Shown: one piece after another, positions 9,917 to 13,105 of the stretch
Layout: every line of letters begins with the position of its first letter
How positions within the stretch are numbered: the stretch's first letter is position 1
Source: Candidatus Parcubacteria bacterium
Lineage (GTDB): Bacteria > Patescibacteriota > Minisyncoccia > UBA6257 > 2-01-FULL-56-20
Direction: 5' to 3'
NCBI GenBank assembly: GCA_027450205.1
Contig: DAIDJL010000002.1
Coordinates: forward strand, 157,758-205,006
Length of the DNA: 47,249 nt
Translations under genes and position numbers: made by a program
Notes under the pieces: model-generated
What the model was told of the DNA's origin: nothing
Seen by the model: only the letters and a program-made list of their open reading frames with translations
The model's database searches: none

Positions 9917-10927
9917 CTAAAGCAGTTCTTCGTAACCTTTTATCTTCAGATGCCGATATGCTGCAGGCAAAACGATCCGTCCGGCGGAAGAACGCTGCAG
10001 GAATCCGAGCGTCATAAGATATGGCTCATAAATATCCTCAATGGCGCCGCGATCCTGTGCGAGCGCCGCGGCGATGGTATTGATGCCGACCGGACCGCCA
10101 TGGAACTTCTCGATGATCGTCATAAGAAGCTCGCGATCCTGCGGCTCAAGGCCCACTTCGTCAACCTCAAGCATCGCAAGCGTCTTTCGCGCGGCGTCTT
10201 CGTCAATGACGCTTTCGCCATGCACTTCGGCGAAATCGCGCGCGCGGCGCAACAGCCGGTTGGCAACGCGCGGCGTGCCCCGCGACGCACGGGAGAGAAT
10301 ATCGATCGCTTCCGGCTTTGCCTCCACGCCTAAGATCGCCGCCGAGCGCTTTACTATTTTCTTAATATCGTCAGGCGTGTAATAGCCGAGCCGAAGCGTA
10401 GCGCCAAACCGCGAACGCAACGGCTGAGACAAAAGATTCTCGCGCGTCGTCGCGGCGATCAGCGTGAACGGCGGAAGGTCAAGCGAGAGCGTCCGCGCCG
10501 ACGGTCCTTTGCCGACGACGAGGTGCAGCTTGCGCGCCTCCATCGCCGGATATAAAACTTCTTCGATCATCGGATTGATGCGGTGCGCTTCGTCGATGAA
10601 CAATATTTCGCCCGGCGTCAGATTGGTAAGTACCGCAGCGAGGTCGCCCGCCTTCTCAAGCGCAGGGCCGGAAGTGGTTTTTATCATACCCCCCAGCTCC
10701 CGAGCGACCAGATATGCCAGGGTCGTCTTTCCCAACCCCGCAGGGCCGGAAAATAAAAGGTGGTCGGCGGATTCGCCGCGCTTTTTTGCGGCGCCCAACA
10801 GCGTCTTTAAATTATCTTTTATTTTTTCCTGGCCGATATACTCATCCCACTCGGCGGGCCGGAGGGTGAGATCGATATTCGGGTCTTCCTTCCCGGCAAG
10901 GTTGTTTTTTGGGGGTGTTTTTGGCAT
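9917..10927 (-). CDS. ruvB: Holliday junction DNA helicase RuvB
   Basis: LRPAEWDEYIGQEKIKDNLKTLLGAAKKRGESADHLLFSGPAGLGKTTLAYLVA...ILFIDEAHRINPMIEEVLYPAMEARKL. Confidence 0.97.
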   Translation of the reverse strand: MPKTPPKNNLAGKEDPNIDLTLRPAEWDEYIGQEKIKDNLKTLLGAAKKRGESADHLLFSGPAGLGKTTLAYLVARELGGMIKTTSGPALEKAGDLAAVLTNLTPGEILFIDEAHRINPMIEEVLYPAMEARKLHLVVGKGPSARTLSLDLPPFTLIAATTRENLLSQPLRSRFGATLRLGYYTPDDIKKIVKRSAAILGVEAKPEAIDILSRASRGTPRVANRLLRRARDFAEVHGESVIDEDAARKTLAMLEVDEVGLEPQDRELLMTIIEKFHGGPVGINTIAAALAQDRGAIEDIYEPYLMTLGFLQRSSAGRIVLPAAYRHLKIKGYEELL

Positions 10928-10951
10928 AGGATTTAAGCGGGTTGGCAAGGC

Positions 10952-10980
10952 TTGACAAATAATATTCTATATGCTAACAT
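10952..10980 (+). promoter_or_regulatory. Sigma70-type promoter for the ncRNA
   Basis: TTGACA (10952-10957) - 17 nt - TAACAT (10975-10980). Confidence 0.65.
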
Positions 10981-10986
10981 ATCCCA

Positions 10987-11363
10987 GTGCTCAATAAATA
11001 TGGGCCGCTGGCAAATCGAACAAGTTCATTGAAAGTAGCTGATTCAGATCTGGGGGCGGGAGTTATTTCTAAAAACTACAGGACGAACCGGTTTCGGCTG
11101 GTTCCATCCTTTGAGTAATTCTAGCCTCTTTTATCATTAGATAGAAGAGATCATTATCCTTTCGCGAGGAATTGCCCCCAGGTCTGAGTCTACTACGTTT
11201 ATGCAGGCTTAGCACATTTATAGTGCCCGCGCCTATTCTCCATATAATGATTATAACAGCGGGCATAGCGCACCCGTCGCGGCATTGATCGCTCCCCGGC
11301 GATCTGCCGCGACGGAATCGGTTCCTCAAACTGATCCGACCAGAAATGGTCGGCTGTTTTTTT
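10987..11363 (+). ncRNA. Unassigned structured non-coding RNA (about 375 nt)
   Basis: Promoter upstream, intrinsic terminator downstream, no credible ORF. 17-bp long-range helix 11041-11057/11174-11190 (two G.U); hairpins 11126-11149, 11224-11265 and 11274-11315. Confidence 0.65.
11336..11363 (+). terminator. Intrinsic terminator, plus strand
   Basis: CCGACC-AGAAAT-GGTCGG-CTG-TTTTTTT. Confidence 0.85.
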
Positions 11364-11390
11364 ATTTATGATCGCGGCCCGATCGTCAGC

Positions 11391-13067
11391 TCACCACACC
11401 AAATCTCCCGTCGCGCCCATCACCTCCTCGAACGTCGTCTTGCCCTCCAGCACCTTCAGTATTCCATCCTGCTGCATCGTAACCATCTCCTGCCGCTGAG
11501 CAACCTCGCGCAAAGCGACCTCCGACGCTTCATGTAAGATCGTTTTTTCAAGATCCGACCCGCCTTCTAAAAATTCAAACACCCCCACGCGACCTTTATA
11601 TCCGATGCCGTTACACCTCGCGCAGCCCACCGGGGTATAAATTTTATAGTTCTCGTACGCCTTTTTATCCACCTTGGCGGGCAATGCGGCAAGAAATGTT
11701 TTTATTTTCTCCGCGGTCGCCGCATCCGCCGGCGCTTCTTTTTTACAGTCCGAGCAGAGCACGCGTACCAGGCGCTGGGCGATCGCGAGAGAGAGGGCCG
11801 GCCCGATCGAAACCGCCTTCACACCGAGATTAATCAGGCGGGGCACCGCGCCGACGGCATCGTTCGTGTGCAGCGTTGAGAGCACAAGGTGTCCGGTGAG
11901 CGCAGCTTCGAGCGCGATATCCGCGGTCTCCAGGTCGCGCACCTCGCCGACCAGGATCACGTCCGGATCCTGGCGGACAATGGCGCGCAAGCCATTGCCG
12001 AAAGTATATCCCGCCTCATCATCCACCTGCGTCTGCTCTACGCCCTCAATGCGGTACTCGATCGGGTCCTCCAGAGTGATGATCTTCATTGTCGGGTCGT
12101 TCATAGTGCGGAGAAACGCATACAGCGTCGTCGTCTTCCCGGAACCCGTCGGCCCGGTATTCAAAATCAGCCCGTTCGGCTGGGCGATTTTTTTCTTCAC
12201 CAGCGCGAGATTGTCGGCGCGCAAGCCGAGGTCCGGCAGCCCCACCATCGTCGCCGACGGATCAAGGATTCTCATGACGATCGTCTCGCCGAACTCCGCC
12301 GGGATCACCGACACGCGCATCTCTATGTCCTTATCGCCAAGCCCGATCGTAAAGCGCCCATCCTGCGCCGCATCGCGCACGTTCAGCTTCATCTCGGAAA
12401 GCAGCTTGATGCGCGACACGAACGTGTGATAGGCGTCGAGTGGAATATCGTCGAAAATATCGTGCAACAATCCGTCAATGCGGAAGCGGAGTTTTGCTTT
12501 TTTTTCTCCCGCCTCGGTATGGATGTCCGACGCGCGCAACCCCATCGCACCAGCCAAAATGATCTCAATGAGCGCGACCGGCGAAGCATTCACAAGCGAG
12601 AGCGATGAGATCTCTTTGTTCACAGCATCAATAGTGATGAGTTTTGCCTTTAGGTCTTCAAGCCGTTTTTTTGTAATCTCAACTTTTCCCGTGATATTTT
12701 CCGCCTCCGGCTTGATGAACTGATAAAATTTCCACGCCGCTTCCATGCTGGATGGCGAAACAACGACCACCTTCACTTCATATTTTTTTGCTGCCAGCTC
12801 CTCCGCGACTTTTTTCGCGGCGGGCAGCCCGGGATCTATCGCTGCAAGCGCGACCTTGTTGGATTTCAGCTCTATTGCGGCAACTTTTGCTTCTTTCGCC
12901 TCGTTTTCAGGCAGTATCCTCACCGCATCAAGCGCCACGGGAATCTTTCCAAGATCCGCATAGGTAAGGCCAAGTTTTTCGGCGAACCGCTGGGCGGCGC
13001 GCTCCTCTCCATCGCGTCGGAGCTTCGCCAGCCTGTCCCTAAGGTCGTTTTGGGGCGCATCGAGCAT
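11391..13067 (-). CDS. pilB: GspE/PilB-family type II secretion / type IV pilus ATPase
   Basis: NGLILNTGPTGSGKTTTLYAFLR...ITLEDPIEYRIEGVEQTQVD...AIVRQDPDVILVGEVRDLETADIALEAALTGHLVLSTLHTNDA, tetracysteine CSDCKK...CARCNGIGYKGRVGVFEFL. Start set to MLDAPQNDLRD. Confidence 0.95.
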   Translation of the reverse strand: MLDAPQNDLRDRLAKLRRDGEERAAQRFAEKLGLTYADLGKIPVALDAVRILPENEAKEAKVAAIELKSNKVALAAIDPGLPAAKKVAEELAAKKYEVKVVVVSPSSMEAAWKFYQFIKPEAENITGKVEITKKRLEDLKAKLITIDAVNKEISSLSLVNASPVALIEIILAGAMGLRASDIHTEAGEKKAKLRFRIDGLLHDIFDDIPLDAYHTFVSRIKLLSEMKLNVRDAAQDGRFTIGLGDKDIEMRVSVIPAEFGETIVMRILDPSATMVGLPDLGLRADNLALVKKKIAQPNGLILNTGPTGSGKTTTLYAFLRTMNDPTMKIITLEDPIEYRIEGVEQTQVDDEAGYTFGNGLRAIVRQDPDVILVGEVRDLETADIALEAALTGHLVLSTLHTNDAVGAVPRLINLGVKAVSIGPALSLAIAQRLVRVLCSDCKKEAPADAATAEKIKTFLAALPAKVDKKAYENYKIYTPVGCARCNGIGYKGRVGVFEFLEGGSDLEKTILHEASEVALREVAQRQEMVTMQQDGILKVLEGKTTFEEVMGATGDLVW

Positions 13068-13105
13068 TTGATATGATGATACCCCTTGGATATAATGCAA
13101 GCAAC
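13068..13105. promoter_or_regulatory. Interlocked divergent promoters for gspE/pilB (-) and yebC (+)
   Basis: yebC: TTGATA 13068-13073, N17, TATAAT 13091-13096. gspE (minus): TTGCTT 13104-13099, N17, TATCAT 13081-13076. Confidence 0.65.

Follow-up and report, generated by a model that had tools for sequence, protein, structure and literature searches.

The window analysed here is a stretch of 47,249 nucleotides from a Candidatus Parcubacteria bacterium (contig DAIDJL010000002.1 of assembly GCA_027450205.1). Between ruvB and pilB, two genes of its minus strand, lies an unannotated RNA gene on the plus strand (10952-11366), which combines an extended −10 sigma70 promoter with an intrinsic terminator. 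That a conserved, functional non-coding RNA gene exists at this site is practically certain in our view. It comprises the promoter, a variable 5′ leader (10987-11035) without conservation among relatives, a conserved core containing the helices P1 to P5 (11036-11195, as delimited by DNA matches and covariance model matches), a species-specific 3′ extension (11196-11335) and the terminator (11336-11362).

The conserved fold of the core is rod-like. P1 closes the structure, an arm made of P2 and P3 carries a UUCG-type cap, and two side hairpins, P4 and P5, are located 3′ of the P1/P2 junction. The arms of P1 occupy 11039-11057 and 11174-11192. In the window 17 bp are paired from 11041 onwards (11041-11057 with 11174-11190) and both departures from Watson-Crick pairing are G.U, exactly as described in an earlier interpretation made without database searches (the sequence-only reading). 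Among 58 sequences, both sides have changed in 17 of the 19 P1 pairs, and in many relatives the 3′ arm is directly followed by a U run. P2 (11059-11069 with 11113-11122) was predicted by RNAalifold and covaries in the same 58 sequences. P3 (11080-11110) starts with a short stem, P3a, in which AGGA (11080-11083) pairs with UCCU (11107-11110), a pairing supported by relatives. A 1x2 internal loop then leads to the apical hairpin (11085-11104), whose 8-bp stem includes tandem U.G/G.U pairs and is closed by a UUCG-type tetraloop (11093-11096). With 12 bp this terminal arm is short, and its caps among members of the order are loops of the UUCG, UCCG, UUUG and UCAG types. The P4 hairpin (11126-11149; 11126-11135 with 11140-11149) shows both-side changes in all of its 10 pairs. 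So does P5 (11157-11170; 11157-11161 with 11166-11170) in all 5, and it is gapped in about 15 of the 58 sequences and absent in some members. Throughout the order, 0-3 nucleotides are unpaired on the 5′ side of the P1/P2 junction, and its 3′ side is taken up by folded hairpins. The hairpins that the sequence-only reading had placed around 11085-11103 and at 11126-11149 are thus present and kept in relatives; P2, P3a and P5 had escaped it. The copies share no conserved reading frame and most are stopped in all frames, for which reason a short-peptide reading was rejected.

Covariation in the ruvB-pilB gap of relatives is very strong. On an alignment of 17 sequences, RNAalifold returned P1, P2, P3, P4 and P5 with compensatory changes in 22 of 56 pairs; with 58 sequences, 49 of the 56 pairs have changed on both sides and all six helices are represented. 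In this larger alignment, 93.3% of the cells hold standard pairs versus 72.3% after shuffling, and 646 cells have changed on both sides versus 184. None of 500 shuffles was comparable and no slid version of the alignment comes near the observed pairing. The 58-sequence alignment was fitted to the covariance model. To check the result independently, we realigned the set with MAFFT from sequence only and calculated mutual information with average product correction for 11,175 column pairs. Sixteen of the top 20 covarying pairs belong to the structure, two prolong P1 and another lies next to a pair of P2. Ranks 21 and 24 link position 11084 with 11105/11106, an apparent C.U/U.C exchange in the internal loop of P3.

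The RNA 10987-11366 of the plus strand folds at −155.2 kcal/mol, compared with −105.7 ± 5.8 in shuffles (z = −8.6). Folding alone leaves the strand unsettled because the complementary strand folds well too (z = −6.3). The covariance model scores 169.7 bits on the plus strand of the window and 40.3 bits on the minus strand, about 130 bits apart, and many G.U pairs occur on the plus strand of the structure. A long intergenic inverted repeat could also be a product of chance or a DNA-level element such as a cruciform, an uptake site or a recombination site. This explanation is refuted by the strand-specific covariation; the compensatory changes in all six helices and the attached promoter likewise stand against it.

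The promoter (10952-10980) consists of a −35 hexamer TTGACA (10952-10957), a 17-nt spacer and the extended −10 element TGcTAACAT, with the hexamer at 10975-10980. The sequence-only reading had named both hexamers and the spacing correctly, and the TG is found in front in addition. Transcription is expected to start near 10987. A pattern scan of the gap detected exactly one promoter-like site, the one just described, and one terminator, in which a 7-bp stem (11336-11353) precedes a U run, also as first proposed; taken alone, such promoter-like and terminator matches are no rarer than in shuffles. Across 77 related loci, TTGAC followed by TAnnnT is located upstream of the RNA in 76, among them all order-level relatives examined, against a background of 1.7% in 185-nt segments taken at random from these loci. 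The spacer measures 17 nt in 73 of the 77, and a TG stands ahead of the −10 in 56 of 58 order members. Outside the core, the promoter (TTGACA, 17 nt, TAnnAT preceded by TG) is the most conserved DNA of the 17-sequence alignment. A simple pattern detects a U run after P1 or after a nearby hairpin at most loci (50 of 77). Since this run directly continues the 3′ arm of P1 in several families, P1 itself is likely to be the terminator stem there.

The 3′ extension covers 140 nt past the core and contains stable, non-conserved hairpins for which no convincing counterpart was found in any fetched relative. Helices that the sequence-only reading had noted between 11224 and 11315 are present at those positions, but they lie inside this extension and have no counterpart in relatives. 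As it is not conserved, the extension was dropped as a part of the conserved RNA. Past the core, the sole shared element is the terminator, which is matched over 30 nt in a single congener (G003). Since the extension is unshared and the RNA of most relatives apparently ends no more than about 60 nt after P1, the conserved RNA is estimated at roughly 130-210 nt with a core of about 155 nt, and the length of about 375 nt initially suggested is not retained. On the reverse strand of this congener's locus (L003), the space separating the core from the terminator common with the window contains a frame of 62 codons that has a Shine-Dalgarno-like GGAGG (MGKGQLQVRVRIDGDEESINLTNP...) and no match in Pfam.

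The RNA is widespread among relatives. When 61 genomes (that of the window plus 60 relatives) were searched at the DNA level, 17 had a match, the window's own among them. Nearly all of these matches span positions 84-238 of the query, equivalent to 11035-11189 of the window, and some add the promoter. Of the order's 238 genomes, 161 matched a first covariance model (R1), with 17 families represented and essentially one locus per genome; second entries, where shown, are weaker opposite-strand matches at the same place. The order includes Harrison-, Wolfe- and Colwellbacteria (Parcubacteria). Named records with the P3/P2 pattern come from these three groups, from other Parcubacteria and from Patescibacteria-type bins, and the pattern was not found in viral contigs. 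In addition, two further models were applied to a phylum sample of 380 genomes drawn evenly, with 16 matches for R2 and 21 for R3. The R3 matches are distributed over 5 of 5 members of the order, 9 of 28 other members of the class and 7 of 347 genomes of other classes.

The RNAs from other classes (eight loci over both scans: L109, L111-L114, L142, L143 and L144) measure about 115 nt. They possess a P3-like arm, their long closing stem is followed by a bulge and then by a terminal stem, and most have the promoter as well. All except L142 have CACGACAAG in common, which is absent from the model and whose unpaired part is a strongly conserved 10-nt bulge of the 5′ strand above P1, CGACAAGCAU. 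Scores of the other-class RNAs rose once class-level sequences, but no other-class ones, had joined the model (from 42.4 to 51.6 and from 29.6 to 41.1 bits), which supports their homology. Confidence in this step is lower than in the others, given that a true member can also score 30-50 bits on its opposite strand. We regard these RNAs as probably a sister subfamily of the window's RNA. A VanW-like gene of one shared family is located downstream of them, convergent in seven of the eight; a different neighbour is as expected for a free-standing gene. At L111, two copies are arranged in tandem on the reverse strand (1501-1615 and 1286-1400), the second with no obvious promoter within 100 nt upstream. 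A peptide start at the AUG of CAAGCAUGG was rejected for the other-class RNAs, as this triplet is AUA in one L111 copy and UAC in L114. The segment CUCACGACA is complementary over 7-9 nt to a conserved part of 16S, which is too short to be given weight.

The flanking genes are clearly assigned and agree with the location between ruvB and pilB given at the outset by the sequence-only reading. The divergent neighbour ruvB occupies 9917-10948 of the minus strand (Pfam RuvB_N, E = 1e-67). The convergent neighbour pilB, a type II/IV secretion ATPase, occupies 11391-13100 of the minus strand (T2SSE, E = 3e-116). The RNA stays beside both genes throughout the order, ruvB being adjacent in 57 and pilB in 54 of 58 loci, and class-level relatives (L102-L108, L110, L138-L140) keep ruvB and/or pilB. 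Moreover, the stop codon of pilB falls a few nucleotides beyond P1 in several genomes. These observations could be expected of a cis element or an antisense RNA for ruvB or pilB, which we nevertheless hold to be very unlikely. The RNA is a leader of neither gene, because it diverges from ruvB and converges on pilB, and because its orientation is flipped at L065 (G081), where the RNA gene is turned around together with its promoter but keeps its place between the two genes. The loci at which pilB (four of 58) or ruvB (one of 58) was not found adjacent, and the vanW neighbours in other classes, argue in the same direction.

Comparison with known RNAs gave no assignment. Rfam 15 contains no family that matches the window or 18 related loci at the gathering threshold. 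At E ≤ 1 nothing credible appeared in the window; the sole matches, BcKCsr2 (18 of 40 bits) and rliH (15 of 100 bits), with best E-values of 0.055 and 0.1, are far below the cut-offs and were rejected as chance. The sequence-only reading had seen no signature of transfer-messenger RNA (tmRNA), RNase P RNA or signal recognition particle (SRP) RNA. Indeed, no corresponding model matches: the RNase P model is negative at the locus and ARAGORN finds no tmRNA in the window. Both RNAs are encoded elsewhere in the same genome, tmRNA on contig C2 (143729-144044) and RNase P RNA on contig C4 (101305-101770). The latter reaches 71 bits where the gathering score is 100, and extends over 466 nt where the model has 367 positions; it is a divergent or enlarged form.

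The slot of SRP RNA is formally open since this RNA is undetectable in the genome. The model RF00169 found no match in the window, none in 31 genomes (the window's own and 30 relatives) and none in the 380 genomes of the phylum sample; in control genomes it detects SRP RNA in 11-13 of 14. The Ffh M domain (PF02978) was found in 0 of 13 genomes and the SRP GTPase (PF00448) in 0 of 9 above the cut-off, while both were present in 14 of 14 controls. This lineage seems to lack the SRP system. Because SRP RNA, Ffh M domain and SRP GTPase are all undetectable, we conclude that the RNA is not an SRP RNA. It does resemble bacterial SRP RNA (RF00169, RF01854) as a compact, hairpin-type RNA from a free-standing gene, but no model matches and the host has no detectable Ffh or FtsY. 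In addition, Ffh binds the GNRA loop and the symmetric internal loop of SRP RNA, whereas P3 has a UUCG-type cap in place of a GNRA-capped helix 8 with a symmetric loop. With RNase P RNA and tmRNA located elsewhere and the SRP system undetectable, a divergent form of a known housekeeping RNA is largely refuted and extremely improbable. The sequence-only reading had left the choice between a new class and a very divergent known RNA; its structured non-coding RNA with promoter and terminator stands, and the second option is unlikely.

6S RNA (RF00013) deserves a separate discussion. The RNA could be a 6S-like regulator, that is, a mimic of an open promoter and a predicted binder of RNA polymerase. 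Like 6S RNA, it is free-standing and single-copy with a strong sigma70 promoter, and forms a long rod-like hairpin (~130-200 nt) whose closing stem and terminal stem are separated by an interruption. The other-class relatives, with their long closing stem, conserved 10-nt bulge and terminal stem, also fit. No 6S RNA was found in the genome, by a model that finds only 6 of 14 controls. Unlike 6S RNA, however, the window gives no match even at E ≤ 1, the P1/P2 junction of the order is not an open bubble of two strands (the other-class relatives have the bulge on the 5′ strand), and the terminal arm is short. We judge this reading unlikely. A regulatory small RNA base-pairing with mRNAs is, in turn, quite unlikely. 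Its size, its own promoter and terminator, its intergenic position and its trans-acting layout would suit such a role. In contrast, very strong conservation of secondary structure over many families, combined with a variable leader and variable loops, is unusual for antisense small RNAs, and no long conserved single-stranded seed is present in the order. Open-licence literature (subscription papers being outside the scope) contained no earlier description of the RNA that we could find, and nothing on SRP RNA or 6S RNA in Patescibacteria. In all likelihood the RNA represents a new class, with no family in Rfam 15 and no earlier description found in that literature.

We favour, by a modest degree of belief, the full proposal of a single-copy, independently transcribed, trans-acting structured RNA of Parcubacteria which works as a ribonucleoprotein. 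Considered separately, a trans-acting role of the housekeeping type is likely, and binding by protein has about an even chance. The RNA would be made constitutively and at a high level. Termination at P1 and its U run or at a nearby hairpin would yield a compact RNA with paired ends, and these ends would confer resistance to exonucleases and hence stability. The apex of P3 and the P1/P2/P4 junction might bind a housekeeping protein, and the resulting particle would act in trans in the general manner of 6S RNA or tmRNA. Some points weigh against this proposal. We infer the high expression from the promoter alone. Furthermore, about one third of the order genomes have no match to the first model. 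Limited sensitivity explains part of these misses, as one genome (G048) was matched only by R3; true losses, if any, would argue against essentiality. More tentatively, and with less than even confidence, the RNA may be a new housekeeping RNA which dates back to an ancestor of several Patescibacteria classes and which a lineage that lost the whole SRP system has retained among its core RNAs.

Strongly structured orphan RNAs of bacteria such as raiA, OLE, ROOL and GOLLD were likewise first recognised through genome comparison, ahead of any knowledge of their function. The present RNA differs from them in size, fold and phyla, and they have no match in the Rfam scans. It is rare for a free-standing structured RNA to be conserved in most members of a bacterial order, and those known best (RNase P, tmRNA, SRP RNA and 6S) are central to the cell. 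Genomes of the Candidate Phyla Radiation measure 0.4-1 Mb and have little dispensable content. An RNA which Rfam does not know and which most of an order in this radiation has kept suggests a core function that has yet to be studied. The RNA is probably important and had been overlooked until now; it offers a testable way into RNA biology across a large set of bacteria that are not in culture.
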